Below are positions 5,460-30,062 of a stretch of DNA of 64,000 nt, piece by piece. The stretch covers positions 1 to 64,000 of the forward strand of contig NZ_FORP01000024.1 of NCBI RefSeq assembly GCF_900114035.1, read 5' to 3'. A program made the translations under genes and the position numbers. A model generated the notes under the pieces. It did not search any database and was not told the origin of the DNA. It saw nothing but the letters and a program-made list of their open reading frames with translations. How positions within the stretch are numbered: position 1 is the first letter of the stretch; every line of letters begins with the position of its first letter. The DNA comes from Amycolatopsis sacchari. GTDB taxonomy: Bacteria > Actinomycetota > Actinomycetes > Mycobacteriales > Pseudonocardiaceae.

Positions 5460-5516
5460 TCAGTGACCGGCGCTCTGCCCGCCGTCGACGTGCAGGATCT
5501 CGCCTGTCACGAACGG
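5460..5516 (-). pseudogene. C-terminal tail of a split SDR gene (left half-site)
   Basis: Reading leftwards from 5514 the strand encodes FVTGEILHVDGGQSAGH and a stop, the canonical C-terminus of an SDR dehydrogenase. The SDR fragment at 29947-30300 ends abruptly just before this motif, at ...LYLENAP. Joining the two across the shared GG/CC restores ENAPFVTGE in frame. This is therefore the 3' end of a gene interrupted by the element at 5515-29946. Confidence 0.85.
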
Positions 5517-5540
5517 ACCTAACGCTTCAGCATACGAACC
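5490..5540. repeat. attL of the nested serine-recombinase element
   Basis: The chromosomal half ends at 5514, the presumed crossover dinucleotide GG is 5515-5516, and the element half-site is 5517-5540. The element arm ends in CGAACC, which mirrors GGTTCG at the start of the attR element arm (29921-29944). Site boundaries beyond the 24-nt arms are approximate. Confidence 0.8.
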
Positions 5541-5616
5541 GCGAAGTGCTGGTCGAAGGCCCTGAGATCATGATCCGCCCGGTGGGTACGCGCCGACAGA
5601 TGGCGGGTGGTTCCCG

Positions 5617-6378
5617 ATGAGCGCGGCGGCTGCCCCGGCTCGGCGGGACCGCGCTCTGTGGGTCCAGTGCGCCTGTACGGCACTGGTCGCCTTGGGCGCG
5701 GCGTACGCCTCGTATCGGCACGGGCGCGAGTTCGCGTTGCGGTTCGGCGCGGACGAGGCCACGGCGGCTATCTGGCCGTTGATCGTGGACGGGTTGTTGA
5801 CCACGGCCACGGTCGAGCTGTGGAAGTCCGGACAGGGCCGCCGTGCGGGTGGTCGGTGGGCGGCGTGGTTGGCGTTCGTGTTCGGCATCGTGCTGTCGCT
5901 GTGCGCGAACGTGGCGGCGGCTCCGGAGTTGAGCGTGTTCGCCGTGGCGGTGGCGGCGTGCCCGCCGCTGGCGCTGCTGCTGGCGGTGGAGTTGCTCAAT
6001 CGTGCGCTGAAGCGGCACCGCGCCGAGACCACTAGCGAGACCAGCGACGAGACCGCCGAGACGAGCGAGACCGGCGACAAGATGACGTCCGTGGTGCGTC
6101 TCGCGGCGATCCCGGACGACTCTCGCCCGGCGGAGCCGACCGCCGAACAGCGGATGTGGGCGTACTACGTCACCGAGCGATCGAAGGGCCGCACGCCGAC
6201 CGGCGCGGAACTGGACCGGATCGCGGGCACGAACAACTACGGCCGCCGAGTGTTGCGCCGCTGGCGCACAGTGGGCGGCCCAGCAGGGACCAGTGCCACG
6301 CGCGTGGCCGCCGCAGCGCCTCGTCGCCTCGGTGTGGACGGCCTACCGGCGCGTGACTCCGCGCAGGCGTCGGCGTAG
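5617..6378 (+). CDS. DUF2637 membrane protein (Spd-like)
   Basis: 253 aa. Four hydrophobic segments lie at about residues 13-32, 48-66, 77-97 and 105-126, followed by an acidic Thr/Ser/Glu-rich linker and a C-terminal helix-turn-helix-like part (GAELDRIAGTNNYGRRVLRRW, about 199-219). DUF2637 proteins are common on actinomycete conjugative elements, where related Spd proteins act in intramycelial spread; this role is inferred here. Its ATG overlaps the stop codon of the recombinase frame that would exist in the excised circle (ATGA at 5617-5620). Its last 36 nt overlap the convergent LapA gene. Confidence 0.75.
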   Translation: MSAAAAPARRDRALWVQCACTALVALGAAYASYRHGREFALRFGADEATAAIWPLIVDGLLTTATVELWKSGQGRRAGGRWAAWLAFVFGIVLSLCANVAAAPELSVFAVAVAACPPLALLLAVELLNRALKRHRAETTSETSDETAETSETGDKMTSVVRLAAIPDDSRPAEPTAEQRMWAYYVTERSKGRTPTGAELDRIAGTNNYGRRVLRRWRTVGGPAGTSATRVAAAAPRRLGVDGLPARDSAQASA

Positions 6379-6720
6379 CTGCCAGATTCGCAGCGATCCG
6401 GCGATCGCGGTCAGCAGCACACCTGCCACGGCGGCCAGCAGCATCGCCACTGCCAGGGAGACGTGTCCGGTCGCGCCGAAGTAGGAGATCTGCACCGACT
6501 GCGTGTTCTGCAAGATGAAGATCAGCAGCAACACGAGCACGGCGGTGAACACGATGACGCCGATCCAGGTGGCGCTGGTGCGGGTGCGCCGCAACGGGCT
6601 GCGACCGACCGGGCCTGCTGCTAGTGGGGCAGTCTCGGCGACCGGCGCTTGCGGCGGCGGGGTCGAGTCGGCGGGCGTGGGGTGGGACTGTACGAGCCTG
6701 GTGGCCGACGTATCGGTCAT
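6343..6720 (-). CDS. LapA-domain membrane protein
   Basis: 125 aa. A Pro-rich cytoplasmic N-terminus is followed by two transmembrane helices (about 51-73 and 86-110) around the signature QNTQSVQISYFG (71-82), typical of LapA/DUF1049 proteins. The short basic C-terminus (RIWQLRRRLRG) fits the family. Actinobacterial members have no established role. It overlaps the 3' end of the DUF2637 gene by 36 nt on the opposite strand. Confidence 0.75.
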   Translation of the reverse strand: MTDTSATRLVQSHPTPADSTPPPQAPVAETAPLAAGPVGRSPLRRTRTSATWIGVIVFTAVLVLLLIFILQNTQSVQISYFGATGHVSLAVAMLLAAVAGVLLTAIAGSLRIWQLRRRLRGVTRR

Positions 6721-6819
6721 GAGATGCCCCCTCTCTTAGGTGAGGGGCTACCTGTCCCACCCTACGCCGATCTGCGCGCGTCCACACACGCCGCATCGTT
6801 CGAACGAGAATGCACCGGC

Positions 6820-7377
6820 TCAGGCGGGGGCGTGGAGGTGGCCGCCCTCGGTCTCCCAGCGCTGTTCCGGTGCTGGCTCGGCCGTCCTGGACGTCGTGCC
6901 CAGCGGGCTGCTGTCGCCGGTCGACGGGGTGACGCCGTTGCTGGCGAGAATGTCCGCCACGCTGGCGGTCGAGTCGCTGGCTGCGGCCGAGCGCAACACC
7001 GCGCGCGCCGTCCCGCCGGGTGTACCCGGAGGGACCACCAACAAGCTGACTCGGCGACCGTCCGAACCGATCACCTCGACGGTGTGCGTGTCCATTGACC
7101 GGAAGCCTCCGAACCGCACCACCCGTCCCTGAACCGGCATCTTCCGCGCCACCGCGTCCCATGTGTCGAGGTGGTAGGACATCCGGCTGACCGGCCCGAC
7201 CGACGCCCCGAGCGCGACGACCAGAGCGGGAAACTCGGCGGCCGGATCATTGGAGTGCGGCCACCAACCGCCATCGACAAACCCGCGCGCCGCACCGGCC
7301 GGTTTCATCTGCAACCGCACGACCACACCGATCTGATCGACTGGGGCTGCGTGGGAGCGATTCTGAGCCGAGATCAT
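6820..7377 (-). CDS. DUF5994 family protein
   Basis: 185 aa. The N-terminal half carries the DUF5994 pattern: RLQMKPAGAARGFVDGGWWP, an ELPALV-like segment, a SYHLDTWD segment, RVVRFGGFRS and LLVVPPGT. The family is widespread in actinomycetes and uncharacterised. The C-terminal 55 residues are low-complexity. It has its own upstream gap (7378-7544) and lies 99 nt from the LapA start, so it may be read independently. Confidence 0.75.
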   Translation of the reverse strand: MISAQNRSHAAPVDQIGVVVRLQMKPAGAARGFVDGGWWPHSNDPAAEFPALVVALGASVGPVSRMSYHLDTWDAVARKMPVQGRVVRFGGFRSMDTHTVEVIGSDGRRVSLLVVPPGTPGGTARAVLRSAAASDSTASVADILASNGVTPSTGDSSPLGTTSRTAEPAPEQRWETEGGHLHAPA

Positions 7378-7544
7378 CTCGGCGCTCCTGCCTCCGACCC
7401 GCCAAGCGGATCGGGGATAGCTACTGCGCCCGAGGCGGCACCCACTGCCCGTGGATACGTGGTCGCCTCCGGTACCTTCCAGCCTACGCCGAACACCTGC
7501 TCACACCCCGGCGATCTCTCACCACGGAGGGGCGGGCGTGGTGC

Positions 7545-8537
7545 TCAGTCGGAACCGGCGGCGTGGTCGAGTTCGGCGCGGACGCGGGCCAGCCGGTCGC
7601 GCCACCACGCCGCCTGTTCGGTGTCGGTCAGCGCGTAGGTGTCAAGTAGGGCGGGGTCGGGCGTGGGCGGTGTGCGGGGTACTGGGAGGTAGCCGCCTGC
7701 CGGGCGCAGCGAGTCGGCACCGGCCACGACATCGCCTTCCAGCAGCGAGAGCGTGCCGAGACCGCAGGCGAAGTCGAGTTCGGGCAGCGCCCCGGCGAGG
7801 GCGAGTTGCGCCGCGAGTCCGACGCTGGTTTCCAGCGCGGAGGAAACCACGCAGGGCAGCCCGGCGGCTTCGGCGACTTGCAGCGAACGCCGCACGCCGC
7901 CCAGCGGCGTGCACTTGATCACGGCTACGTCCGCCGCGCCCGCGACCGCTACCCGCATCGGATCTTCGGCGCGGCGGATGGACTCGTCGGCGGCGATGCG
8001 CACGTCGACCTGGCGGCGGACGGCGGCCAGTTCCTCGATGGTGCGGCAGGGTTGCTCGACGTACTCCAGTCCGCCCGCTGCCTTGTCGAGCGCTCGGATG
8101 GCGGTGACCGCGTGGTCCACGTCCCAGACGCCGTTGGCGTCTACGCGGATCGCCCCGTCCGGGCCGAGCGCGTCGCGGACGGCTTCCACGCGGGCGAGGT
8201 CTTCGGGCAGCGATTCGGGGTGGTCGGCGACCTTGACCTTGGCGGTGCGGCAGCCCGAGCGGGCGGTGATCTCGTGAGCGCGTTCCGGGCCGACCGCGGG
8301 GACGGTGCAGTTGATCGGGATGCGGTCACGTACGGGCTCGGGCCAGCCCACGGTGCACTGCTCGATGGTGGTGGCCAGCCAGGAGGCGGACACGGCGTCG
8401 TCGTAGTCGGCGAACGGGCAGAACTCGCCCCACCCGGCAGGGCCTTGGATCAGCATCCCCTCGCGCACGGTGATGCCTCGGAACCGGGCGCGCATGGGGA
8501 TGGCGTAGACGTGGGCGGCGTCGAAGTCGATGGTCAT
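7545..8537 (-). CDS. menC: o-Succinylbenzoate synthase-like enolase superfamily protein
   Basis: 330 aa. All enolase-superfamily catalytic residues are present: Lys100-x-Lys102 (TAKVKVA), Asp133 (RVDANG), Glu161 (YVEQP), Asp184 (IAADES) and Lys208 (VIKCTPLGG). The pattern fits o-succinylbenzoate synthase of menaquinone biosynthesis, or a related N-acylamino acid racemase or dipeptide epimerase. The ATG at 8537 overlaps the TGA of the upstream regulator (TGATG), so the two are translationally coupled. A MenC-type gene on a mobile element without other men genes is unusual. Confidence 0.75.
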   Translation of the reverse strand: MTIDFDAAHVYAIPMRARFRGITVREGMLIQGPAGWGEFCPFADYDDAVSASWLATTIEQCTVGWPEPVRDRIPINCTVPAVGPERAHEITARSGCRTAKVKVADHPESLPEDLARVEAVRDALGPDGAIRVDANGVWDVDHAVTAIRALDKAAGGLEYVEQPCRTIEELAAVRRQVDVRIAADESIRRAEDPMRVAVAGAADVAVIKCTPLGGVRRSLQVAEAAGLPCVVSSALETSVGLAAQLALAGALPELDFACGLGTLSLLEGDVVAGADSLRPAGGYLPVPRTPPTPDPALLDTYALTDTEQAAWWRDRLARVRAELDHAAGSD

Positions 8538-9985
8538 CAGGTGGTGGAGTCCTCGTCTCGGCGAGCGCGGTTGCGGGTCAGCAGGTCGGTGATGCGCTCG
8601 TCCAGTTCGCCGAGGTGCCGTGAGCTGGCGCGCAACGGTCGGACCTGTCGTTGCAGCGTGCGCAGCCGGTCGAGCGTGCGGGTGGAGCTGACCTGTGCGG
8701 CGGTGCGCACCGCGTCGCGTCCGAGCGCTGCGGCGTGTTCGTAGTCGCGGCCGACGAGGTGGGCGGTGGCGAGGTCGGTTTGCACGAAGCAGCGGCTGCG
8801 GACGCGCCACGGTTCGTAGGTGTCCATCGCTTGGCTGATCAACCGGGTGCCCTGCTCGGGCTCGCCCACGTCTCGCAGGCAGCGGCCGAGGTCGGCGGCG
8901 AGTTCGGCTTCGGTGTAGAAGGCCAGCCAGGTGGGTTCGTCGTCGGCACGGGCGCGCTCGTAGCAGCGCTCGGCTTGCAGCACGGCGGTGCGGGTGGCGT
9001 TGGCTTCGCCGAGCAGGGCGTGCCCGCGTGCCTCGACGGCGTGTAGCAGGGCGGACAGCACGGGGGTGGCCTTGCCGTCAGTGACGCTGTGACCGGCGCG
9101 CGCGAGCGCGATGGCTTGGCGGGCGTGGCGCAGCCGGTCGTGGTCGGTGATCGCGCCGTGGCCGATCTGCACGGTGAGGCGGCTCATGTGGGACAGCACG
9201 TTGGCGGCGTAGAGCCGGTCACCTGCGCTCATGGCGAGGTTGAGCGTCTGGATGTAGTAGCGCTGGGCCAGCGAGTGGCGGCCCACGTCGGCGGCCATCG
9301 AACCGGCCAGCCAGGAGGCTTGGGCGACCGCGCCGAGCAGCGCTTTGCCGGTCTTCTCCGAGTAGCTGCCGTGCATGACCGTGCTGGCCTCGCGGTGCAG
9401 CAACTGCACGATCTGCTCACGGACGCGGCCCGAGCTGTACCGGTGATCGAGGCGGCGTAGGTGGGCGATGTTCTCGGTGATGATCTCGACATCGGGCATC
9501 CCGATGCGTTTGCCCGCGACCCGCGCGGTGTTCTCGGTGGGCGGCACGGTGAGCGCGAACAGCGCGGGCTCCGAGAAGGCCGCCGCCGTGAAGGCGGAGC
9601 CCAGCAGGAACTTGCGCCGATCCATGTCCCGTCCCGACAACTCGACAACCGTGCGAACCGTGCCGTCCAGTGTGCCTGAACACTGGAGCCCGTCGTACCG
9701 ATCATCGGATGCCGGAGTGCGATCGGCAAACCCGCACTCGGTGACGCTGATCTCGCGGTGCAGGTGGCGGGACAGCACCTTGGCGACGAGCCGGGGCACC
9801 GGCCAACGTGGCTGGGAACCGTCCAGCATCCGCTTCACCGAGGTGGTGTTGGTTCCGACGTGCACGCCTTCCTCCGCGCCCGCCGTCACCACGGCGCGCG
9901 CGAGCGCGGCGTTGCTCATTCCGGCCTCGTCCAGCAGCGCACGCAGCGCGGTGTTGCTGTCGCCCGCTCGGCCGTCGCGGCCCAT
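8537..9985 (-). CDS. HTH regulator with TPR-like C-terminus
   Basis: 482 aa from the ATG at 9985; a longer frame runs to 10105. The N-terminal region (residues about 10-75) looks like the atypical HTH of actinobacterial NsdA-type regulators (GMSNAALARAV...VHVGTNTTSVKRML). The C-terminal 300 residues are helical, TPR-like repeats. Between them is a twin-arginine-like segment, RRKFLLGSAFTAAAF (123-137). It has the look of a Tat signal but lies internally, as seen in several such proteins. It is coupled to menC by TGATG and is divergent from the gene at 10207. Confidence 0.7.
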   Translation of the reverse strand: MGRDGRAGDSNTALRALLDEAGMSNAALARAVVTAGAEEGVHVGTNTTSVKRMLDGSQPRWPVPRLVAKVLSRHLHREISVTECGFADRTPASDDRYDGLQCSGTLDGTVRTVVELSGRDMDRRKFLLGSAFTAAAFSEPALFALTVPPTENTARVAGKRIGMPDVEIITENIAHLRRLDHRYSSGRVREQIVQLLHREASTVMHGSYSEKTGKALLGAVAQASWLAGSMAADVGRHSLAQRYYIQTLNLAMSAGDRLYAANVLSHMSRLTVQIGHGAITDHDRLRHARQAIALARAGHSVTDGKATPVLSALLHAVEARGHALLGEANATRTAVLQAERCYERARADDEPTWLAFYTEAELAADLGRCLRDVGEPEQGTRLISQAMDTYEPWRVRSRCFVQTDLATAHLVGRDYEHAAALGRDAVRTAAQVSSTRTLDRLRTLQRQVRPLRASSRHLGELDERITDLLTRNRARRDEDSTT

Positions 9986-10206
9986 CCCGGTCACATCCTG
10001 GCGTACTCGTCCCATTGCTGGCCGTAGTCGATCGTGGCGCACCGGCCGATGTCCTGTGAAGCCCCGCGTGCGAAGTGGGACCGAAGTGGGACCCCTGAAC
10101 AGCAAGCGGACGCAGTGCCACGCAACCCTGACTGCCGTCTAGCTGAGCTGGGCGTTTGTCTGGTGGTGACGGATCACTGACCGACCGTTGCCAAGGAGGC
10201 TAGACA

Positions 10207-10707
10207 ATGGCCACGCCGACGATCACAGCCGCACAGGGCGGCAACGGGCCCCACCAAGAGCAGCCCCTGTCCGGGCTGACCGCGACCGCTGCCCACTACG
10301 CAGGGTGGGAATGGCTGGTCCTGCGAGCCGATGATCGGCTGCTGCTGACCACCAACGAACGGGTCAGCGCGGTCGAGCTGCCCGCCGCGATCGGCGCCGA
10401 GGTACAGCACTACCTCACGGTGCGGATGCTCGCCGGACCGGTGGTCGCCCTGCCCGGCGTACCGCGCCGTTGGCTGTTGCTCACCGAGTCCGCGGACGAG
10501 TCCGCCCCGGTCAACCTCGTCCGGCTGCGTGCCCGTGGCGCGCTGACGCACCGCTGCGGGACCTTGGTACCGCTGCCGCCGAGCCGCCTGGAATCCGGCG
10601 TCGTGACCTGGCAGGTGCCTCCGTCGCTGGACGGCCCGTCGTTGCCGCCGTTCACCGCCGTGGTCGCAGCAGTCCGCGCGGTGACCGAAACGGTGGGACT
10701 GGCGTGA
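10207..10707 (+). CDS. Hypothetical protein
   Basis: 166 aa, start supported by AAGGAGG 8 nt upstream. No family was recognised with confidence. Features such as LPAAIGAEVQHYL and GPVVALPGVPRRWLLLTE faintly recall the N-terminal part of actinobacterial bifunctional primase/polymerase-related proteins, but catalytic Asp motifs are not evident. It opens a rightward group that continues with the radical SAM and CYTH genes. Confidence 0.6.
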   Translation: MATPTITAAQGGNGPHQEQPLSGLTATAAHYAGWEWLVLRADDRLLLTTNERVSAVELPAAIGAEVQHYLTVRMLAGPVVALPGVPRRWLLLTESADESAPVNLVRLRARGALTHRCGTLVPLPPSRLESGVVTWQVPPSLDGPSLPPFTAVVAAVRAVTETVGLA

Positions 10708-10734
10708 CCGCCGCGCATCGCCGCGCATGAGCGG

Positions 10735-11004
10735 ATGGGCGAGCCGATGTGCGTCTGCGGTTGGCAACTCGTCGCCGTGACGGTGCTGCTCCAACTCTTG
10801 ATCCTCGGATACGGCGAGATCGAGGGTCGCCGCCGCAGCGCGGCCGACCTGCGGGCGTTCCGGCACCGGCAGGTGGACGGCACACCCGCCAAGCACAGCC
10901 CCACGGCGCGACACCGCACGGGCGAACCCGTGAAGTCCCTGCGTGCCCGCCACGACGCCGAGACGCTGCCCTACTACCCGTCGTCGTCCCGCAAGACCAC
11001 CTGA
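10735..11004 (+). CDS. Small single-pass membrane protein, hypothetical
   Basis: 89 aa. One hydrophobic helix (about 11-27, QLVAVTVLLQLLILGYG) is followed by a basic, Arg-rich cytoplasmic tail. The start is uncertain: ATG at 10735 or the internal one at 10747. The gene fills the gap between the neighbours in the same direction. No function can be proposed; similar short proteins are frequent in actinomycete element backbones. Confidence 0.4.
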   Translation: MGEPMCVCGWQLVAVTVLLQLLILGYGEIEGRRRSAADLRAFRHRQVDGTPAKHSPTARHRTGEPVKSLRARHDAETLPYYPSSSRKTT

Positions 11005-11192
11005 CCGCTCCGGCGGCGCAGGCGCGGCCCCTCCCGCACCTGGCCCCTGCGCTGCCGGAGCACCCCACGCGGCACGTCGCCAGCCCGTACCCCGACCGGG
11101 CTCGACGTGCCGCACCCGGCACCCGGCGTGATCCCCCGCGCGCCGGGTGCCGGTCTCCCGATCCCACCGCAACCACGGAAGGGCCACCTCCG

Positions 11193-12275
11193 ATGTTCCC
11201 CACCGGCATCCCTGTCCACGTCGAGAAGGACAAGACGGCGCGCGTGAAGATCCACGATCCCTGCGGGCTGACCTGCGACTTCTGTCACAACGAAGGCACC
11301 CCGGTCGTGGTGGACAACCGCCGCCGGCCGCTCGGCGACTTCACCACCGCCGGCCCCAGTGGGCGCGTGTCGATCTACGCCGCCACCAACGGCGCGGCAT
11401 TCCTGCCCGCCGCAGTCCCCGACAACGAGCAGTTCGGCGAGGCGCTGACCGTGTTGGGCGACGCCCTGGACCTCAGCGAGGTGCATCTGACCGGTGGTGA
11501 ACCGACGTTGCATCCCGCCGTGGCGCGGCTGACGAAGATCGCGGTGGACGCCGGGTTCCAGGTCGGGATGACCTCCAACGGTGAGCGCGGTGACCGGGTA
11601 CTCGCCGACTGCGCCGCCGCTGGGCTGGACCGGGTGAACTTCTCCGTCTTCGGCACCACGGCCGCCGAACTCGCCGAGGTCCAGCACGCCCGCTACCGCG
11701 ACCCCGACCGCGCACAGCGCAAGATCGACGCCCTGAAACGCTCCATCGCCGAATGTGAGGCGCACGGGATCAAGGCCGGCGCCAACATCGTGGTGCTCGA
11801 CCACAGCCACGCCCCGCGCGTGCACCGCCTGCTGGACGAATACTCCCCGTACCTGTCGGTGCGGCTGCTCAACTCGCTGGACCACGGCCCGGTCTCGATC
11901 GAAGCCATCGAACGCATCCTCGCCGAGCGTGGCGCGGTCGCCGAGGCCCACTACATCACCGCTGGTGTGTCCGGCGCACGCACCGCCTACCGGCTGCCGG
12001 ACGGACGGCGGGTGTTCTTCAAGCAGATCCGGCCCGTGCGGCTGCCCGACACGTGCGCCGGGTGCCGGTTCAACAACGACACCGACTGCCAGGAAGGCTT
12101 CTACGGCGTGCGGCTCTACTACGACCGCACCGGCCGCTACCAGGTCGGCGTGTGCATCCAGCGCATGGACCTGTGCATGCCGCTGGACGAGTTCGTGACC
12201 AGCCCGAAGCGCGCCGAGATCCTCGCCCTGCGCGAAGCCGAGTACCAGCGGCTCACCACCCGCCTCGCCGGATAA
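11193..12275 (+). CDS. Radical SAM protein, MoaA-like
   Basis: 360 aa. The radical SAM cluster motif Cys24-x3-Cys28-x2-Cys31 (CGLTCDFC) is present, and GGEPTLHP (101-108) is the SAM-binding GGE motif. The C-terminal region has at least five more cysteines (about 288, 291, 299, 321, 328; CAGCRFNNDTDC and GVCIQRMDLC), suggesting an auxiliary Fe-S cluster as in MoaA and SPASM/Twitch enzymes. The ATG at 11193 follows GGAAGGG; the open frame upstream is not coding-like. The CYTH gene begins 35 nt after its stop and is probably in the same operon. The substrate is unknown. Confidence 0.8.
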   Translation: MFPTGIPVHVEKDKTARVKIHDPCGLTCDFCHNEGTPVVVDNRRRPLGDFTTAGPSGRVSIYAATNGAAFLPAAVPDNEQFGEALTVLGDALDLSEVHLTGGEPTLHPAVARLTKIAVDAGFQVGMTSNGERGDRVLADCAAAGLDRVNFSVFGTTAAELAEVQHARYRDPDRAQRKIDALKRSIAECEAHGIKAGANIVVLDHSHAPRVHRLLDEYSPYLSVRLLNSLDHGPVSIEAIERILAERGAVAEAHYITAGVSGARTAYRLPDGRRVFFKQIRPVRLPDTCAGCRFNNDTDCQEGFYGVRLYYDRTGRYQVGVCIQRMDLCMPLDEFVTSPKRAEILALREAEYQRLTTRLAG

Positions 12276-12310
12276 CGTCCACCACTGATCACCATCGGAA
12301 GGAGCCCGCA

Positions 12311-12841
12311 GTGCCCATCGAGCACGAAGCCAAGATCCTCGACATCGACCCCGACGCCATGGAACAGCTGATCCTGGACAAGGGCGGCCAGAAGCTCGGC
12401 GAGCGGTTCATGCGCCGCTACGTCTACGACATCACCCCTGGCGACCAGTCCAAGTGGATCAGGCTCCGCGACACCGGCGACGAGACCACGCTGACCGTCA
12501 AGCAGATCACCAGCGACGCCATCGACGGCACCCACGAGATCGAAGTGGGCGTCGACGACTTCGCCGCCACCAACGCACTGCTGAACGTGCTCGGCTTCAC
12601 CGCGAAGTCCTACCAGGAGACCAAGCGCACCAGCTTCATCCTCGACGGCGCACAGGTCGAGATCGACACCTGGCCCCAGATCCCCCCGTACTTGGAGATC
12701 GAAGCCGGGTCCAAGGACGAGGTGGTCAGGGTCGCCGGACTGCTCGGCCACACCGAAGCCGACCTGACCGGCGAAAACACCATCACGATCTACGCCCGCT
12801 ACGGCATCGACCTGAACACAATCCCCGAACTGCGCTTCTGA
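12311..12841 (+). CDS. CYTH-domain protein (class IV adenylate cyclase/triphosphatase fold)
   Basis: 176 aa, GTG start with GGAG about 6 nt upstream. The CYTH signature E-x-E-x-K is at residues 4-8 (EHEAK). Further acidic and basic strand residues typical of the triphosphate tunnel follow (KWIRLRD, TLTVKQ, HEIEVGV, QVEIDTWPQIPPYLEIE). Family members hydrolyse or cyclise triphosphates with divalent metals: ThTPase, tripolyphosphatase or CyaB-type cyclase. It directly follows the radical SAM gene. The actual substrate is not visible. Confidence 0.8.
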   Translation: MPIEHEAKILDIDPDAMEQLILDKGGQKLGERFMRRYVYDITPGDQSKWIRLRDTGDETTLTVKQITSDAIDGTHEIEVGVDDFAATNALLNVLGFTAKSYQETKRTSFILDGAQVEIDTWPQIPPYLEIEAGSKDEVVRVAGLLGHTEADLTGENTITIYARYGIDLNTIPELRF

Positions 12842-12937
12842 CCATCGCCACCCGTCCACCGCGTCCGCACGCCCGCGCACTGCCGATCGGCCCTGCGGGC
12901 GTGCGGCCCCCGCACGCCCACCAGGAGCCCGCCAACC

Positions 12938-13315: not shown

Positions 13316-13552
13316 GAAACGAGCCGCCAGCCATTCACCCGGCAACTCACTGGGCAACTCATCGACCATTTCCTAGGCAACCCAGAGCTGCCGGGGTACA
13401 CATCTGGCGTTAGTAGCGGTTGACCTGCGGTTTCAGTCGTGCGGTCGTGCTACGCGGGTGCCCGATTGGCCTTATATGGCCACCCGTGGTGCGGCGTACA
13501 CACATCCACACAACGACCGGAACACGCCGGGCGGCTACGGCAACATCGACTG

Positions 13553-21823: not shown

Positions 21824-23035
21824 CTACTCCCGCTCTCCGAACGCGCCGGCCCGTGCCAGCGCGTCGATCTCGCCTGCGTCCATGTCCAGGAGCTGCTCGA
21901 GCACCTCACGGGTGTGCTCACCCAGCGACGGGGCGCGCCGGTGGTCGCTGCGCGGCGCACCGGCGCGGGCGGCGGAGGCCACCTGGCGCACGGTGCCGAA
22001 CCGCGGGTGCTCGGTGCTGATCAGCAGCCCGCGCGCGGCGGCGTGCTCGTCGGCCAGCGCCTCGGGCACCGAGTTGATCGGCGCGCACGGCACCCCGGCG
22101 GCTTCCAGGCAGTCCAGCCACTCCGCCGTGGTCCGCTCGGCCAGCTCCACCTCCAGCAGCCGCACGCACTCCGCGGAGTTCTCGTAGCGGGCGGCGGGAG
22201 TGGCGAACCGTTCGCTGCGCGCCCACTCCGGCGAGCCGAGCGCGTCCACGAGCCGTTCCCAGAACTTCTGCTTGGCGCAGCCGATGACGATCCAGGAGTC
22301 CTTCGTGGGGAAGTTCTGGAACGGCACCAGGCTCGGGTGGGCGGAGTGGTGCGTGCGCCGGGGCTCGAACCCCTTGTTCAGATGCCACGTCGCCAGGTAG
22401 GTCAGCATGCCGATGGCGGTGTCGTAGAGGCTGACGTCGCAGTCCATGCCGACGCCGTCCCGCCGCGCGGCGTGGATGCCCGCCAGCAGCGACGTCGCGG
22501 CCACGATGCCGCCGGAGTAGTCCACCATGGACAGACCGGACTTGGTGGGCGGCCCGTCCGGCTCGCCGGTCACCGACATCCAGCCCGCGAGGCCCTGCAA
22601 CATGTAGTCGTAGCCGGGCCGGTCCTGCCGCGGACCGGTCATGCCGTAGCCGGACAGCGAGCAGCACACGATCGCGCGGTTGAGGTGCTTGAGGTCGTCG
22701 TACCGGATGCGCATCTTCGCCGGGACGTCGCCGCGCAGGTTCGAGTACACCGCGTCGCTCACCGACACCAGCCGCTCGAACGTGCGGCGCCCGGACTCAC
22801 TGGACAGGTCGAGGACGATGGAGCGCTTGTTGCGGTTGAACGCCTCGAAGAACAGCGAGTCGCCGTCCTGCGCGTAGGGCGGGGTGTGCCTGCCGACGTC
22901 GCCGCCGAAGCGCGGGTCCTCGATCTTGATGATCTCCGCGCCCAGGTCGGCGAGGTGCAGGGTGCCGAACGGGCCGGCACCGTACTGCTCCACCGCGAGC
23001 ACCCGGACGTCGGAAAGGGGCAGCCGCTCAGTCAT
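21824..23035 (-). CDS. CaiB/BaiF family CoA-transferase (family III)
   Basis: 403 aa. Typical class III CoA-transferase features: VLAVEQYGAGPFGTLHLADLGAEIIKIE at the start, NRNKRSIVLDLSS, and GPRQDRPGYDYMLQGLAGWM (Asp in this segment is in the region of the catalytic Asp), with GIVAATSLLAGIHAARR and PFQNFPTKDSWIVIG. It would activate the dicarboxylate by CoA transfer, probably from succinyl-CoA. It overlaps the MaoC gene by 8 nt and is followed directly by the acyl-CoA dehydrogenase. Confidence 0.88.
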   Translation of the reverse strand: MTERLPLSDVRVLAVEQYGAGPFGTLHLADLGAEIIKIEDPRFGGDVGRHTPPYAQDGDSLFFEAFNRNKRSIVLDLSSESGRRTFERLVSVSDAVYSNLRGDVPAKMRIRYDDLKHLNRAIVCCSLSGYGMTGPRQDRPGYDYMLQGLAGWMSVTGEPDGPPTKSGLSMVDYSGGIVAATSLLAGIHAARRDGVGMDCDVSLYDTAIGMLTYLATWHLNKGFEPRRTHHSAHPSLVPFQNFPTKDSWIVIGCAKQKFWERLVDALGSPEWARSERFATPAARYENSAECVRLLEVELAERTTAEWLDCLEAAGVPCAPINSVPEALADEHAAARGLLISTEHPRFGTVRQVASAARAGAPRSDHRRAPSLGEHTREVLEQLLDMDAGEIDALARAGAFGERE

Positions 23036-23570
23036 GGGTTCCCTGTTCCGCGGGCAGCGTCATCGGGCCGTTCTTCGCCTCCGGGAAGGAGTCGATCACC
23101 GTGGCGTGGGCGCGCTTGTAGATCAGCACCGTGCGGTCGAACGACACGCACTCGTCGCCGTCGGCGTTGAGCATCCGCGAGCGGACGCTGACCAGGCCCG
23201 CGTACGGCCGCGACGCCGATTCCCGCTTGTTCGTGCAGATCGACTCGGCGTACACCGTGTCGCCGACGAAGACGGGGTGCGTCAGCTGCACGTCGGTCAG
23301 CGACAGGTTCGCGATCGCGCGCTGGCTGATGTCGGTGACGCTCTGCCCGATCAGCATGGCGATCGTGAGCCCGGAGTTGACCAGGACGCGCCCGAACGGG
23401 GTCCGTCCGGCGTAGTTCGCGTCGAAGTGCGCCGGGTGGGTGTTCATCGTGAGCAACGTGAACCAGGTGTTGTCGGCCTCGCTGATCGTCCGGCCCAGGG
23501 GGTGGCGGTAGACGTCCCCGACCACGAAGTCCTCGTAGTAGCGCCCTTGCCAGCCGTCGTGCACAGCCAC
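23028..23570 (-). CDS. MaoC-family enoyl-CoA hydratase
   Basis: 180 aa, GTG start. A single hot-dog domain with the hydratase-2-like segment around residues 30-52 (EADNTWFTLLTMNTHPAHFD) and GRVLVNSGLTIAMLIGQSV. It resembles mesaconyl-CoA or itaconyl-CoA hydratases more than the fatty-acid type; this is a weak judgement. It is the first gene of the leftward operon, with a divergent GntR regulator upstream. Confidence 0.83.
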   Translation of the reverse strand: MAVHDGWQGRYYEDFVVGDVYRHPLGRTISEADNTWFTLLTMNTHPAHFDANYAGRTPFGRVLVNSGLTIAMLIGQSVTDISQRAIANLSLTDVQLTHPVFVGDTVYAESICTNKRESASRPYAGLVSVRSRMLNADGDECVSFDRTVLIYKRAHATVIDSFPEAKNGPMTLPAEQGTHD

Positions 23571-23605
23571 GCGGCGACCTCCTGTCGTGTTGCGTTGGGG
23601 GGTTC

Positions 23606-23627
23606 CCCGGACCGGCTCGGGTCCGGG
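23606..23627. promoter_or_regulatory. 8-bp inverted repeat upstream of the MaoC operon
   Basis: CCCGGACC (23606-23613) and GGTCCGGG (23620-23627) around a 6-nt loop, 36 nt before the MaoC start and inside the divergent control region shared with the GntR gene. It could be an operator for that regulator or a leader hairpin. Confidence 0.4.
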
Positions 23628-23778
23628 CTTGGCGGGCAGTATGCGTGACGCAGACCGCAGCGCGCAATACCTCAGACGTTTTCCGCGTGCACCTCGCTCG
23701 TGCGGCTAGACTCCGGTGTGCTTCGGTTGCGTTCCGTTGCGCACGACGCCCGACATCGATGAACAGGACACCGCCGAC

Positions 23779-24543
23779 ATGACCGACGCCCCAGCTCCCG
23801 GCTCCGGACTCCGCGTCCGCCGCGTGCGCGCCGCCTACCGGCAGGTCGCCGACCAGCTCAGGGAGCAGATCCTGACCGGCACGCTGCCCTCGGGCACCCG
23901 GCTGCCCAGCGAGGCGGAACTCACCGGCCTGTTCGGGGTCAGCCGCAGCACCGTACGGGAGGCGCTGCGGCTGCTGGCCAGCCAGCACCTGATCGACACC
24001 ACCCGCGGTGTCACCGGCGGGAGTTTCGTGTCGAACCCGGACGCCGACAGCATCGCCGACAACCTGGGTGGCACCCTCGGGCTGCTGGTGAACACCAGGT
24101 CGATGACGGTGTCAGACCTGCTCGAGGCCCGGCTGATCCTGGAACCGTCGGCGGCCCGGCTGGCCACCGAGCGGGCCGACGCCGAGGCGCTGGACATGCT
24201 GCGGGCCACCGCGGCCAGCACCTCGACGCTGGAGCCGGACCGCGGCTTCGTCGTGCACTGGGACTTCCACACCACGCTCGTGTCGGCCACCGGCAACCCG
24301 CTGCTGCAGCTGATGTGCCGCCCGATCAACGAGGTGCTGCACAGCAGGCTGGACCGGGACCGGATCAGCCGCGCGGAGTGGGAGCGGGTCGACCGCGATC
24401 ACGTGGACATCTACGAAGCGGTGACCAGCGGGGACGCCGAGGCCGCCGAGCGGCTCACCCGCGAGCACCTGCACAGCCTGCGACCGCTCTACGAGCAGAT
24501 GGAGGTGCGGCAGCCCGCGCCGCCGCGTCCTCCGTCGGACTGA
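23779..24543 (+). CDS. GntR-family regulator with FCD domain
   Basis: 254 aa from the ATG at 23779; a GTG at 23716 would add 21 residues. The winged helix (LPSEAELTGLFGVSRSTVREALRLLASQHLI, about 37-67) is followed by an all-helical FCD domain with His/Asp ligands in VHWDFHTTLV and NEVLHSR...VDRDHVDIYEAV. FCD proteins respond to small carboxylates. It is divergent from the MaoC-led operon and upstream of the MmgE/PrpD gene, so it probably controls both in response to a pathway acid. Confidence 0.85.
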   Translation: MTDAPAPGSGLRVRRVRAAYRQVADQLREQILTGTLPSGTRLPSEAELTGLFGVSRSTVREALRLLASQHLIDTTRGVTGGSFVSNPDADSIADNLGGTLGLLVNTRSMTVSDLLEARLILEPSAARLATERADAEALDMLRATAASTSTLEPDRGFVVHWDFHTTLVSATGNPLLQLMCRPINEVLHSRLDRDRISRAEWERVDRDHVDIYEAVTSGDAEAAERLTREHLHSLRPLYEQMEVRQPAPPRPPSD

Positions 24544-24629
24544 TTCCGCCAGGAAAAGTCCGATGTTTTCTTGCGGCGGTGCTCGACGGGCTGGCACACT
24601 CCTGCCCACGCCGCAGGGAAGGGAATCGC

Positions 24630-26012
24630 ATGGGATCGTCCAGCATCGCCGAGCGCATCGGGGAGTTCGCCGCCGCAGCGACCTTCGAGGACCTGCCGCG
24701 GGCCGTGGTCGACCACGCCCGCAACCTGGCGCTGGACTCGGTGGGGGTCGCGTTCTGCGCCGCGGGAGAACCGTTCGCCGAGCGCGCCCGCCGGGCGGTG
24801 TCCCGGTTCGGGCGAGGTGATCACCCCGTGCTGGGGTCGCCGGACCGGCTGTCGGCGCGCGACGCCGCACTGCTCAACGGGATCCTGGTCCACGGGCACG
24901 ACTTCGACGACACGCACATCGGCTCGATCGTGCACGTGTCCGCCTCGGCGCTGCCGGCCGCGCTCGCCGCGGCCGTCGAACATGACCGCACGACGCGCGA
25001 GCTCATGCTGGGCTACATCCTCGGTCTCGAGATCAGCGCCCGGGTCGGTCTGGCCGCGCACGGGGGTTTCCACCGCGCCGGTTTCCACCCCACCGGACTG
25101 GCCGGCGCGTTCGGCGCGGCGGTGGCGGCCGCCACGGTGTCCGGTTCGGACGCCGCCGGGATCGCGGGCGCGCAGCAGATCGTCGGTTCGATGGCGTCCG
25201 GCATCCTCGAGTTCCTGGAGGACGGTGCGTGGACCAAGCGCCTGCACCCGGGATGGGCGGCGGCATCGGCGCTCACCGCGGCCGGTTTCGCGGCCGCGGA
25301 CTGGCCGGGGCCGCGCGCGGTGTACGAGGGGCGCTACGGGCTGTTCGCGACGCACCTGCCCGGGCAGGAGTGCGACACCGAGACCATCGTGGCCGATCTC
25401 GGGCAGCGGTGGGAGATGCTCGGCACCGGTGTCAAGCCGTACCCGAGCTGCCACTTCACACACAGCTTCGCCGATGCCGTGCTCGCGGTGCGCGAGCACG
25501 AAGGTCTCGAACCCGACCAGGTCACCGACATCCTGTGCCGCATCCACCCGACGGCCGCGGCCGCGGTGTGCGAGCCGCTGGAGGGCAAGCGCCGCCCGCG
25601 CGACCTGTACGACGCGAAGTTCAGCCTGCCCTACGTGGTGGGCGCGTGCCTGCAGCGCGGACGGCTGACGCTGGCGGAGTTCACCGACGAGTCCCTGACC
25701 GACACGGCGATCCACGCGATCGCCGACCGGGTGCGCATCACCGACGACCCGGACAGCCGGTTCCCGGAGGCCTATTCGGCCGAGATCGAGGTGACCCTCC
25801 GGGACGGTCGCGTGCTGACCCACCGCGAGGACGTCAACCGCGGCCACCACGAGCGGCCGCTGACCCCGTCGGACATCGAGCGGAAGTACCTGGCGAACAT
25901 GCGGCAGGTCGCCGACGAGCCGACGATCGAGCGCGTCCGGGCGGCCGTGGCGGATCTGGGGTCCGACCGCGGCGCGCGCGACTTCGCCGAGGCCTGCGCC
26001 ACCGCGGGCTGA
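24630..26012 (+). CDS. MmgE/PrpD family protein
   Basis: 460 aa from the ATG at 24630 with AGGGAAGGGA upstream. Family marks include HGHDFDDTHIGSIVHVSASALPAALA, GFHPTGLAGAFGAAVAA, AWTKRLHPGWAA, VKPYPSCHFTHSF and the LYDAKFSLPY segment. PrpD-type proteins dehydrate 2-methylcitrate; relatives are cis-aconitate decarboxylase (itaconate forming) and iminodisuccinate epimerase. Beside an itaconate/mesaconate-like enzyme set, either a dehydratase or a decarboxylase is possible. It is 86 nt downstream of the GntR gene on the same strand. Confidence 0.85.
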   Translation: MGSSSIAERIGEFAAAATFEDLPRAVVDHARNLALDSVGVAFCAAGEPFAERARRAVSRFGRGDHPVLGSPDRLSARDAALLNGILVHGHDFDDTHIGSIVHVSASALPAALAAAVEHDRTTRELMLGYILGLEISARVGLAAHGGFHRAGFHPTGLAGAFGAAVAAATVSGSDAAGIAGAQQIVGSMASGILEFLEDGAWTKRLHPGWAAASALTAAGFAAADWPGPRAVYEGRYGLFATHLPGQECDTETIVADLGQRWEMLGTGVKPYPSCHFTHSFADAVLAVREHEGLEPDQVTDILCRIHPTAAAAVCEPLEGKRRPRDLYDAKFSLPYVVGACLQRGRLTLAEFTDESLTDTAIHAIADRVRITDDPDSRFPEAYSAEIEVTLRDGRVLTHREDVNRGHHERPLTPSDIERKYLANMRQVADEPTIERVRAAVADLGSDRGARDFAEACATAG

Positions 26013-26254
26013 GCGCCGTACCGTCCGCGCGCGTCGAGCGGCCGGCCTCGACGTCGACGTGGTCACCTTCGAGCTCGCGGTCACGACCTGTCCTCCCGCG
26101 CGAGCCGCTACATATTCGAGGCGTCCCTCGGCGGTCTCGGTGCCGTGATGGCCGGACTGGCGGGCCGGCGTCGGCTGGTCCGTGCGCACCCGCACGCCGA
26201 CGTGTCCTGGTGGACGCCGACCACCGGCTCCTCGTCACCCACGCGCTCGATGTG

Positions 26255-26450
26255 GCCGGGCTGGTTCGGGCCGCCGCGCGGCCGGACACACAGGACCACT
26301 CCGGCTACCGCAGGTACGACGCCGGTGCGGTGGTCGAGCTCATCCGGATCGAGACGCTCGCCGGAGCCGGGGTTCCGCCGGCTCGGCTGCGCGCGCAGAG
26401 CCGGCAACGCGAGCGGCATCGGGCGCGCATCGCCCGCCTCGCCTCCGGGC
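26255..26450 (+). pseudogene. MerR-type regulator remnant
   Basis: In the frame containing 26297 the sequence SGYRRYDAGAVVELIRIETL followed by AGVPPARLR is the second half of a MerR winged-helix domain. The usual start (a GEVA/RTLRHYDEIGLL-type segment) is not found upstream, and downstream sequence soon becomes low-complexity Arg/Pro-rich. No start codon with a ribosome-binding site is evident. The 26013-26860 stretch holds nothing else that I recognise. Confidence 0.5.
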
Positions 26451-26861
26451 GGCCTGGCGGTGCCGCCGGAGGTGGGATCGTCCGGGTCGAGCGGGACGCT
26501 GGATCCCGCCTGCCGCACATGCCCCGGCCGGGTCGTCGCGGAGTGGGCCGGGCGCTCGACGCCGCGCGAGCGGGCCCGGAGCCGGACCGGCCGGCCGCCT
26601 CGATCACGCGGATGACCGACGCACCCGAGGACGTGGAGCTCGCCCCGACGCTCGCCCGGCCGCTCGACGCCGTGGCCGCCCCGGAGCCGCGCCGGCGGCG
26701 CAGCGGCCGGACCCGCGCCGTGCGACCGGATCACGTCGTGGCAGGCACCCGCGGTACCGGGACGTGGTGTTCCGGGGCCGGGGCGCTGCTCCTGGTCGCG
26801 GTGGACGGCTGTCGTCCTGGCGCCGCGGTGCCACCGGCCGGGGCGCCGGTCAGCCGGCGGC

Positions 26862-27428
26862 GTGCGCGCCCGTCATCAGCGCCGCCAGGTCCACCTGAGG
26901 ATGCCGGCCACCACGATGCTCATCGGCGGCATCGTCTTCTCCGTGGGCGGGCTGCTCGGCTCCCTCGGCTTCTCGGCGCTGTCCGACCGCGTCGGCAGGC
27001 GACCCGTGTTCATCGTGGCAGCCGCTTTCACCGCGCTGTACGCGTTTCCGCTCTTCTGGCTGGTGGACATCCGGTCGGCGCCGATCATCTGGCTGGCCCA
27101 GGGGCTCGGAGGTGTCGCGAACGGCACGCTGTACGGCTTGATGGGCGCGCTGACCGCGGAGATGTTCGACGCCCGGGTGCGCTACACCGGTGCCTCGATC
27201 GGGCAGCAGGTCTCGGCCGCGGCCGTCGGCGGGACGACACCGCTGATCGTGACCGGACTGGTCGCCCAGGCCGACAGCTACTGGCCGGCCCCGGCCTGGC
27301 TGGCGGCCCTGGCGGTGATCAGTCTCGTGTGCGTGTACCTGGCGCGCGAGACCGGCAAGAACCGCACCCTGGATGCCGGGGGGTCGTCTGCCTCGGCCGA
27401 CGCGGCCCGGGCGGGCGATCCGGCGTGA
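26862..27428 (+). pseudogene. MFS (metabolite:H+ symporter-type) transporter, C-terminal half
   Basis: 188 codons; homology begins near 26895. Five to six transmembrane segments of the C-terminal MFS half are present, with the MHS-like loop LSDRVGRRPVFIV and MLIGGIVFSVGGLLGSL. Parts resemble the intact transporter at 39697-41013 (RVRYTGASIG versus SVRYSGASIC). The N-terminal six helices (about 200 residues) are missing. Its stop overlaps the GTG of the following amidase (GTGA), so the original operon order is preserved. Confidence 0.75.
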
Positions 27429-28270
27429 GCACCGCCCCGCTGCCGGACGCCGTGGCCACCGCGGCCGCCGTGACGGCCGGGACGATCTCGCCGGTCGAGC
27501 TCGTCGAGGCGGTCCTCGAGCGGGTCGAGCGGATCGACCCCGTCCTGAACTCCTACACCACTCTGCTTCGCGGACGTGCACTCGCCCGGGCGCACGCGAT
27601 CGGCCGGACCACGGGCACGACGCCGCGACCGTTGCCGGGACTGCCGGTCGCGGTGAAGGACAACCTGCACGTGGCCGGTGCGCCCACATCCCTGGGGGTG
27701 TACCCGCCCGCCGTGGCGGAACCGGTGCGCAGCGCGGAGGCGGTCCGCCTGCTGGAACGGGCCGGAGCCGTCGTGCTGGGCAAGACCAACCTGCACCAGC
27801 TCGCCTACGGCGCCACCGGTGACGTGTCGGCGTTCGGGCCGGTGCGCAACCCGCACGATCCGGCCAGGATGGCGGGCGGCTCGAGCGGCGGATCGGCGGC
27901 CGCGGTCGCGGCCGGGCTGTGCGCCGCGGCCTTGGGTACCGACACCGGTGGGTCGGTCCGGGTGCCCGCGGCACTGTGCGGCGTCGTCGGGCTCAAGCCG
28001 ACCCGGGGCGCGGTCGGCACCGGGGGAGTGGTGCCGCTCGGGCCCACTCTCGACTGCGTCGGGCTGCTGACCCGCACCGTTCGGGACTGCGCGGCGTTGT
28101 TCGCCGTCCTGGCGGGCCGGACCACCCCACGGGACACGGCGGCGCGGGAACGGCTCGACGGCTACCGGATCGGGGTCCCGGACGCGTTCTACTTCGACGA
28201 CGTGCAACCGGCGGTCGGCGCCGCGTGCCTGCGGGCATTGGACACTAAGTCAAAACTAGTAGTGATCTAG
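27425..28270 (+). pseudogene. Amidase, 3'-truncated
   Basis: The GTG at 27425 begins a good amidase-signature N-terminus: VAVKDNLHVAG with the catalytic Lys, AGGSSGGSAAAV, LGTDTGGSVRVPAAL. The similarity stops at about 28243 (CLRALD), after which seven unrelated codons lead to a stop at 28268-28270. Family members are 400-470 residues; here only about 273 remain. The break marks the right edge of the catabolic block, next to the recombinase's upstream region. Confidence 0.85.
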
Positions 28271-28285
28271 TAGCCGCGTAGCCGT

Positions 28286-28317
28286 CCTGTGGCAGCCGGA
28301 CAAACGGCTACCACAGG
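28286..28317. promoter_or_regulatory. 13-bp inverted repeat upstream of the recombinase
   Basis: CCTGTGGCAGCCG (28286-28298) pairs with CGGCTACCACAGG (28305-28317) with a single mismatch around a 6-nt loop. It ends 35 nt before the recombinase ATG and could be an operator, an attenuator or a terminator of incoming transcription. Confidence 0.5.
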
Positions 28318-28352
28318 GCACGCGGAAATGCCGAACCAAGGGGGGTCGGACA

Positions 28353-30062
28353 ATGGCGCGATCAACAACCGCGCAACGCACCAAGAAAGCAGCGATAACC
28401 ACACTCGGCGATGACGTGCGAGTGGGGATCTACGTGCGGCGCTCCACTGACGACGAGCACCAGCCCTACTCGATCGAAGCTCAAGATGCGCGCCTGGAAG
28501 CCTACATCGGCTCCCAGCCCGGTTGGCGGCTCGTGGCGCGGTTCCCTGATGACGCCTCCGGTGCCACTACCGAACGCGACGGGTTGCAACGCGCGCTCGC
28601 CGCCGCCCGTGCCGGGTTGATCGACGTGCTGTTGGTGTACCGGGTGGACCGGTTCTCCCGGAACCTGCGGGACATGGTGATGCTGCTTGACGAACTGGAC
28701 TCAGCCGGGGTGGTGTTCCGCAGCGCCACGGAACCGTTCGACACCTCGACGCCGATGGGTCGGATGCTGGTGCAGATGCTCGGCATGTTCGCCCAGTTCG
28801 AGCGCGACACCATCATCGACCGGGTCATCGCCGGGATGGAACGCAAGCACGCCAAGGGCAAGTGGAAGGGCGGCAAACGCCCATTCGGCTACCAGGTGGA
28901 CAAGACCTCGCACACGCTGATCGTGGACGAGCACGAAGCGGTGATCGTCAGGATGATCTTCGACCTCTACACCAAAGACCGGCTCGGGTCCCGCGCCATC
29001 GCCAAAGTGCTCAACGACCGGGGCCACCGCACCAGCTCGGGTGGCAAGTGGTCCGGCTACCAAGTCATCCGCGCCCTGAACAACCGCGTCTACCTCGGCG
29101 AACTGACGTTCCGGGAGACCACCGTGACCGACACCCACGCACCCATCATCGACCTCACCCGGTGGGAGCAGGCCCAAGCCATCCTCGACGCCCGCGGCGA
29201 ATCCCACGCCCACCGGGCCGCGTCCGGCTCCGACTACGTGCTCACCGGACGCCTGCGCTGCCCCCAGTGCGGCAAAGCCATGATCGGCACCCGCGCCACC
29301 GGACGAAACCGCACCTACCGCTACTACACGTGCTGGAACCTCGCCCGCTACGACGCCAGCAAGTGCGACATGTCGCGGCTCAACGCCGACGCCGTGGACG
29401 CAGCCGTCCTGGATGCCCTGGCCACCTTCTATCGCACCCGGCACGACCTCATCGCCGACGCCATCACCCACGAACAGAAACAGCACCAGGCGGCGCACGC
29501 CGACCGGCACGCCGAACTCGCCGCCGTCGAGAACGAGATCACCAAGACCGGGCAGGCCATAGACCGGTACCTGTCCGCGTTCGAGCGCGGCACGATGGAC
29601 GAAGAACTCGTCGCCGACCGGCTCACCGAACTACGCGCCAAGACCAAGCAACTCCGCATCCGCCGCGACGAACTCACCCTCGCGCTCGACGACGAGCCCA
29701 CCACCCCCGAGCCCGCCACCCTGGCAGCGGTGGCCGATCACATCACCGAGATCATCACCAACGGCACCCACAACCAAACCAAGGCACTTGTCGAAGCCCT
29801 CGTCGCCAAAGTCACCATCACCGGCCCCGACCGGCTCATCCCGGTCTTCCGCATCCCCCAACCCCGCAACAACGACGGGGCAGCACCCGCCCTACCAACG
29901 GAAACGGCCCCGAACGGAGTGGTTCGCACAATGACTAAATCGGTGGGGCGTTTTCCAGGTAGAGCACCGCGTCGACGATGTCCGAGATCTCGCCCATTCG
30001 GCGGACCGGGTGCAGGCCGGCCAGCGACTCGTGCGTTTCCGGGGCGTGCATCGGGGTCTTGA
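28353..30062 (+). CDS. int: Large serine recombinase (integrase)
   Basis: 569 aa in the integrated state. Resolvase domain with nucleophile Ser31 (YVRRSTDD), YRVDRFSRNLRDMV and GRMLVQMLGMFAQFERD. It is followed by the recombinase domain (DLYTKDRLGSRAIAKVLNDR), a zinc ribbon with Cys pairs (CPQCGKAM...YTCWN...KCDMSRL) and a coiled-coil. Start: AAGGGGGG upstream. The frame crosses the attR core at 29945-29946, so its last 38 residues come from chromosomal sequence. In the excised circle it would instead run into 5517-5620 and end, at 565 aa, in an ATGA overlap with the DUF2637 gene. Confidence 0.92.
   Translation: MARSTTAQRTKKAAITTLGDDVRVGIYVRRSTDDEHQPYSIEAQDARLEAYIGSQPGWRLVARFPDDASGATTERDGLQRALAAARAGLIDVLLVYRVDRFSRNLRDMVMLLDELDSAGVVFRSATEPFDTSTPMGRMLVQMLGMFAQFERDTIIDRVIAGMERKHAKGKWKGGKRPFGYQVDKTSHTLIVDEHEAVIVRMIFDLYTKDRLGSRAIAKVLNDRGHRTSSGGKWSGYQVIRALNNRVYLGELTFRETTVTDTHAPIIDLTRWEQAQAILDARGESHAHRAASGSDYVLTGRLRCPQCGKAMIGTRATGRNRTYRYYTCWNLARYDASKCDMSRLNADAVDAAVLDALATFYRTRHDLIADAITHEQKQHQAAHADRHAELAAVENEITKTGQAIDRYLSAFERGTMDEELVADRLTELRAKTKQLRIRRDELTLALDDEPTTPEPATLAAVADHITEIITNGTHNQTKALVEALVAKVTITGPDRLIPVFRIPQPRNNDGAAPALPTETAPNGVVRTMTKSVGRFPGRAPRRRCPRSRPFGGPGAGRPATRAFPGRASGS
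29921..29970. repeat. attR of the nested element
   Basis: The element arm is 29921-29944 (begins GGTTCG, ends CGGT), the presumed GG crossover is 29945-29946 and the chromosomal half follows from 29947. The arm is an imperfect inverted copy of the attL element arm at 5517-5540 (14 of 24 positions agree by eye), as expected for the two halves of a serine-integrase attP. Confidence 0.82.

Follow-up and report, generated by a model that had tools for sequence, protein, structure and literature searches.

What does a large serine integrase recognize when its element lies inside a protein-coding gene, and is that gene its proper target? The question is raised by a 64,000-nucleotide stretch of Amycolatopsis sacchari (contig NZ_FORP01000024.1, positions 1 to 64,000; hereafter the window), in which an element of 24,430 bp (5517-29946), whose right end encodes a large serine integrase, interrupts the reading frame of a short-chain dehydrogenase/reductase (SDR) exactly at a GG dinucleotide. 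This is very probably an integrative element of a serine-integrase clade that enters the 3' ends of transfer RNA (tRNA) and transfer-messenger RNA (tmRNA) genes, carries its phage-type attachment site (attP) inside the integrase frame and splits that gene on integration, the SDR insertion being off-target. Junctions, target spectrum, spacing, open frame, selection on the detached tail and integrase-attP-tail genes in two relatives were all read from sequence.

Junctions in the SDR remnant

The GG core of the left junction (attL, 5515-5516) recurs as the core of the right junction (attR, 29945-29946), and beyond it no base is common to both junctions on either side. The P' arm (5517-5540, plus strand) consists of 18 nt followed by a terminal CGAACC, and the P arm (29921-29944, plus strand) of GGTTCG and 18 nt leading to the core, doubling as integrase codons. 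Compared with the reverse complement of the P arm, the P' arm is alike at 14 of 24 positions (P ∼ 0.001 for random arms), and the outer CGAACC is identical. DNA homology with closer relatives stops at 29946-29948, i.e. at the GG core. Using the last 22 nt of the P' arm and allowing up to three mismatches, we located 20 places in 14 of 16 genomes (the arm was not found in G393 and G394) and six more in six of six genomes; the core is GG at 24 of these 26 places and AG at two, and one place (L098) is an attP. Both junctions thus bear out what a sequence-only reading of this DNA had proposed: a 24.4-kb element with exact ends, readable attL and attR, imperfect inverted 24-nt arms around a central dinucleotide, and the integrase gene at its right end.

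Joining the sequence up to 5516 with that from 29947 onward yields one SDR frame, which ends in ISDIVDAVLYLENAPFVTGEILHVDGGQSAGH and a stop. The C-terminal piece (5460-5514, minus strand; FVTGEILHVDGGQSAGH and stop) lies on the host side of attL and forms the unspecified half of the bacterial-type site (attB); in relatives it is contiguous with the middle part (29947-30303, minus strand), on the host side of attR. The joined 414 bp match 75 of 390 family genomes at E ≤ 1e-20, the host's own included, and in the best 19 of the 74 other matching genomes the stretch runs uninterrupted across the junction in every case (76-79% identity, single-piece alignment). The proposed split (29947-30300 and 5460-5514) with an in-frame join over GG therefore stands, and so does the expectation that element-free relatives carry the SDR uninterrupted. 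None of 18 other genomes of the host genus matches the joined SDR at this threshold, so no empty site was seen from a close relative. One correction concerns the interrupted SDR, which is a remnant: its reading stops near 30303, ∼100 N-terminal residues are missing beyond it by comparison with L078, and the N-terminal part was not found in any of the three frames of 30303-30600.

The protein encoded from 28353 is a large serine recombinase by its domains, with Pfam matches to Resolvase (E 3.7e-44), Recombinase (1.4e-19) and Zn_ribbon_recom (1.5e-14). Arg-29, Arg-30 and Ser-31 are invariant among 27 integrase sequences, and Ser-31 is presumably the catalytic serine. The gene was correctly placed, but its extent had to be corrected: the 531 codons to the core (28353-29945, plus strand) contain no stop, and the frame continues antisense through the SDR (29946-30062) to a stop at 30060-30062, the first one, 115 nt past the core.

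Targets of related integrases

To define the usual target, we compared 74 integrase loci (L029-L073 and L113-L141), 44 from one scan and the others from a family search with 50 matches in 44 of 390 genomes (30 opened, the window's own included). After setting aside 23 repeats (sharing a 90-nt junction; for L070 and L071 the sole reason was the end of the contig), two loci at contig ends (L057, L067) and one unrelated sequence (L072, 25% identity), 48 distinct readable right junctions remained. Forty-three are 3' ends of tRNA or tmRNA genes, 31 of them intact according to ARAGORN (Met 10, Ala 8, Lys 5, tmRNA 4, Leu 3, His 1) and 12 fragments judged by eye; the host RNA gene is thus still intact after insertion at 31 of the 43 sites. 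The other five comprise four attP-type junctions (L068, L131, L132 and L059, the last scored from layout alone) and the SDR of the window. The fragments lie at the right junctions of L034, L037, L039, L041, L044, L053, L055, L056, L061, L066, L118 and L129, and several break off within the anticodon arm or close to it, a pattern suggestive of nesting at tyrosine-integrase element ends.

Of the 43 tRNA-type sites, 41 carry the T-loop sequence [CT]GAAC at a distance of 13 nt from the core and two, where the arm is one base off, at 12 nt; in the window, 63 of 12,919 GG sites have the motif at 13 nt. Variants are few (core AG in L049, L050 and L122, and GT in L042; arm off by one base in L056 and L065). 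In attP, CGAACC lies 18 nt from the core in both arms, so that the T-loop CGAAC of attB, with the core in the acceptor stem, is 5 bp closer. A 5-bp shift of the zinc-domain motif between attP and attB is the rule described for LI integrase (PMC3783163). A 2-bp core and attP and attB of different length with this shift, as expected of large serine recombinases, are seen at the tRNA-type sites; the shift is not seen at the SDR. In the other attB half, no base occurs in more than 12 of 26 places at positions -24 to -3 (the 26 P'-arm places above, one of them the attP of L098), and the enzyme therefore appears to need only the tRNA half-site. An alternative core GT at positions -2 and -1 was considered and rejected: G is found at -2 in all 47 host tRNAs, so its conservation is uninformative on the core position, and the window junctions share GG only.

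Targets vary among very similar enzymes. Integrases 93.8-98.5% identical to that of the window sit at Ala, Leu, Lys-type and tmRNA sites, and Prauserella endophytica has copies at both tRNA-Ala and tRNA-Leu in one genome. A quick tree of 39 sequences, drawn without a shuffle control, with 18 of 37 inner branches unresolved and the labels of the 12 tRNA fragments assigned by eye, requires at least 21 target changes.

On a matrix built from 21 tRNA-type half-sites, that of the SDR reaches -26.5 bits, compared with 21 to 32 for the tRNA set, and is close to the median: 46% of 12,916 GG sites in the window score equally well or better. The host has 47 tRNA matches, 12 of which have the start used by most relatives, GT followed by the GG core, among them three tRNA-Ala, Lys-TTT, Leu-TAG and one Met. 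Since its genome contains one integrase of this kind and a single P' arm, these sites are free. The SDR insertion is best taken, from the sequences compared, to be a rare off-target event in which the site shares nothing but the core. That the SDR is no standard attB had been suspected, and relatives do use tRNA and tmRNA 3' ends; that it is the element's proper target finds no support in the location of the 93.8-98.5% identical integrases or in its random-like half-site, and we rejected it as a specific target on the relatives' junctions and this score. A shifted recognition was likewise discarded. The pattern GG-N13-CGAAC does occur at 5495-5514, 20 bp left of the core, but this position ranks 461 of 79,088, and with 39 occurrences on both strands of ∼40 kb of host flank the copy at 5495 is probably due to chance. 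We also found no basis for a changed specificity of the window enzyme: eight residues differ from the Prauserella flavalba integrase, and Met-340 and Ser-341, which adjoin the last zinc-type cysteine (Cys-338), are also present in L118 and L122 at tRNA-type sites.

The integrase frame across attP

At 47 of the 48 loci, the integrase frame stays open up to the core, which it enters in one constant phase; the P arm is open only in this frame, the other two holding stops. The left end of the window element carries what looks like the missing 3' end, a detached C-terminal tail of 34 residues (5516-5620, plus strand; DLTLQHTNREVLVEGPEIMIRPVGTRRQMAGGSR and stop). Its motif, GLTxQHTNxxVLVEGPEIxIRPVGTRR... 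with a terminal stop, is found in the integrase frame at the left ends of 25 of 27 aligned rows (window and 26 others). The ratio of nonsynonymous to synonymous variation (pN/pS) is 0.29 in the integrase frame versus 1.24 and 1.56 in the other two, and 23 of 24 third codon positions vary compared with 12 first and 10 second positions (20 of 27 rows, 19 unique; L096, L098, L104, L110, L112, L194 and L196 were dropped because of motif or spacing). Judged by these codon patterns, the tail is under purifying selection.

Some relatives have long tails of 134-176 residues, with helix-turn-helix matches in all three that were scanned (L131, L132, L196) and a pN/pS of 0.28 over the helix-turn-helix part (seven of nine tails used; L196 and L213 left out). 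In L131 and L132, integrase, attP and tail are joined as one open gene. A search of 20 genomes turned up six detached long tails in three genomes; each immediately follows the core and has no in-frame integrase sequence before it. The first 62 tail codons of L132, L205 and L208 contain no ATG, GTG or TTG and extend to roughly the middle of the first helix-turn-helix match (codons 42-84), so that the whole tail could not be produced alone from a standard start. With attP inside the integrase frame and the tail at the other end of the element, integration would split the integrase gene; in L131 and L132 the arrangement reads as contiguous, and elsewhere frame, tail and selection point to it.

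A predicted structure of the 531 residues (mean predicted local distance difference test score (pLDDT) 76.9, predicted template modelling score 0.40) has its last strand ending near residue 499 and its folded part near 503; residues 505-531 are disordered, with pLDDT < 50. On this model, the split seems to spare the recombinase fold as a whole and to detach an appended tail.

The start codon of the next open reading frame (ORF) overlaps the tail stop as ATGA or GTGA in 23 of 27 rows; this ORF is very short in L108, L110 and L112 (10, 25 and 54 codons). Many attL loci, e.g. L102, L104, L106 and L192, have at this position a conserved protein of ∼66 residues (MSGDTIITGL..QADGLACV.CGADYLRVRVPHVPVGRSVTGSQVFAC), a possible accessory or directionality factor that is absent from the window, where a DUF2637 protein takes its place. 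L198 (G002:C40) and L199 (G374:C46) are integrase genes that keep attP and helix-turn-helix tail joined, within contigs of 70 kb and 453 kb, and partial or degenerate long-tail copies are present in G391, G407 and G419. Near position 6800 of L068 we noted a tandem arrangement, in which a natural attP is followed after ∼70 bp by a second tail-like left end and then by a partial second integrase.

Alternative explanations, proposed switch and known systems

Could the SDR gene be the specific attB of the window integrase after all? The insertion is exact at GG and the SDR stretch is intact in relatives, as such a site would demand, but the half-site scores like random sequence and the enzyme shows no unique specificity residue. 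In addition, a tRNA 3' fragment is the site occupied by the 98.5% identical integrase of P. flavalba, and the SDR is the only non-tRNA case among 44 integrated junctions (48 minus the four attP-type, L059 being doubtful). We regard a specific SDR target as very improbable. An integrase-independent event or a misassembly could also have produced the SDR junctions. The T-loop motif is not at the right place in the SDR site, and the truncated SDR and a 14-kb foreign segment within the element indicate that the locus has been rearranged; yet the element begins and ends precisely at the core seen in relatives, and rejoining the SDR restores its frame without adding or removing a base, which makes such an origin equally hard to credit.

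An independent short gene or leader peptide at the left end, with the open frame through attP being incidental, would fit the distance between tail and integrase in the integrated state, the GTG found inside some tails (shown for L196) and the overlap of the next gene with the tail stop in 23 of 27 rows. This explanation leaves unaccounted for the constant phase at the core in 47 of 48 loci, the stops in the other two P-arm frames, the lack of start codons over 62 codons in three long tails, and the single open genes of L131 and L132. We consider it improbable, if a little less so than the two preceding ones.

Several observations weigh against an attP inside the integrase frame of a clade directed to tRNA genes. 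Beside the second, partial integrase of L068 (junction near 9582, outside the set of 48), CGAACC lies at 13 nt with no called tRNA gene, and L059, whose contig ends 126 nt on, may be a second non-tRNA junction. L131 and L132 retain their attP; their contigs measure 70 kb and 453 kb, and the 19-kb stretch around each locus contains no tRNA. A contiguous attP of the short-tail subclade occurs in one of 390 genomes only (G225, apparently the record of L068), where the tail is degenerate; the sole other pattern match is an attR. The integrase frame of L065 is out of phase, the tail motif is missing in L098 and L112, and the linker of the long tails has a pN/pS of 0.59. Of 20 genomes searched from other relatives, 15 gave no long-tail match, and the tail may therefore not be common to the whole clade.

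In the integration pathway that we still favor, the zinc ribbon would read the T-loop CGAAC 13 nt from the core of attB, with the core in the acceptor stem and the other half nearly unspecified. On the excised circle, the gene would encode a complete recombinase, a flexible linker and the C-terminal tail, presumably expressed as a fusion. Integration would carry the tail over to the opposite end of the element, with the integrase left to end in whichever host DNA follows, and loss of the tail, or of the coupling to the next gene, may alter integrase action or the expression of left-end genes after integration. The host copy would have gone off-target into the SDR remnant while its usual tRNA sites stayed free. 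We tentatively suggest, aware that the balance may tip the other way, a directionality or expression switch: a detachable helix-turn-helix DNA-binding domain would be lost from the C terminus at each integration and the left-end genes uncoupled from the integrase message, with excision restoring both, and the T-loop half-site would open many tRNA and tmRNA targets. Serine integrases are standard genome-insertion tools whose determinants of target and direction are still under study. A clade reading chiefly one half-site, in the most conserved part of tRNA genes, would show a route to many safe landing sites, and a gene that sheds its C-terminal part on integration would, if true, serve as an inherent record of whether the element is integrated or excised.

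Suicidal archaeal tyrosine integrases target tRNA genes. Those of SSV1, pTN3 and pT26-2 likewise have attP in the integrase gene and are split on integration, and the review that treats them describes self-disrupting recombinases as exclusively archaeal (PMC8371274). The integrases studied here have serine recombinase domains, their hosts are almost all actinobacteria, and the predicted recombinase fold survives the split. Our search of the open-licence literature found no bacterial serine integrase of the self-splitting kind. The A118/LI integrase (PMC3783163) shares the resolvase, recombinase and zinc-ribbon domains, a symmetric attP and a zinc motif 5 bp nearer the center in attB; in our clade only one attB half, tRNA T-arm and acceptor, is conserved and attP lies inside the integrase gene. 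Entry into tRNA genes by serine recombinases is called rare by Ghinet et al. (2011; PMC3218068), who list actinomycete integrative and conjugative elements (AICEs) in tRNA-Leu of Mycobacterium and phage phiRSM1 in tRNA-Ser. Each of those systems uses one tRNA gene, whereas close relatives here use Ala, Met, Lys, Leu, His and tmRNA genes. Closely related integrases at many genes are also known among the multi-targeting large serine recombinases of Durrant et al. (2022; PMC10083194), but the example motif given there is relaxed and T/A-rich with a TT core, in contrast to the long conserved RNA-gene element found here, and the word "tRNA" is absent from the main text of that paper.

Gene content and foreign segment

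The ATG of a DUF2637 membrane protein gene (5617-6378, plus strand; Pfam PF10935) overlaps the tail stop as ATGA. It is followed on the minus strand by genes for a LapA-domain protein (6343-6720), DUF5994 (6820-7377), an o-succinylbenzoate synthase-like protein (7545-8810) and an NsdA-family regulator (8537-10105), and on the plus strand by genes for a radical SAM protein (11193-12275) and a CYTH-domain protein (12053-12841, as ORF). DUF2637 and Replic_Relax type genes are associated with AICEs, and the element, also actinobacterial, resembles them in having both types. It differs in that Pfam matches to an FtsK-type or SpoIIIE-type Tra, a Rep/Prim-Pol or a replication initiator are absent among the element ORFs scanned (some small ORFs unscanned); AICEs are defined by an FtsK/SpoIIIE-type Tra and a Rep/Prim-Pol beside the integrase (Ghinet et al., 2011).

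The earlier account of the element was right about its ends and integrase and overlooked both the end of the integrase gene at the left end and 14 kb of foreign DNA. The latter (14226-28244; 14,019 bp) stands in place of 1,534 bp of element and cuts off the Replic_Relax gene, whose 5' part (13655-14225, plus strand) ends at 14225 and which is intact in L041 (7830-9134). The segment contains genes for an amidase, hydantoinase A, HpcH/HpaI, CoA-transferase III, a GntR/FCD regulator, MmgE/PrpD and a truncated amidase. It is catabolic in content and adjoins the integrase, with a truncated gene at either edge and no obvious target duplication. Its source genome was not found, the best family match to the truncated amidase being 76% over 319 bp. 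The closest opened relative is P. flavalba (L041; integrase identity as given above): 8.36 kb in the left part of the window element (5870-14225) are 96.5% identical to its element, which measures 11.95 kb in its entirety (L201, 533-12481).

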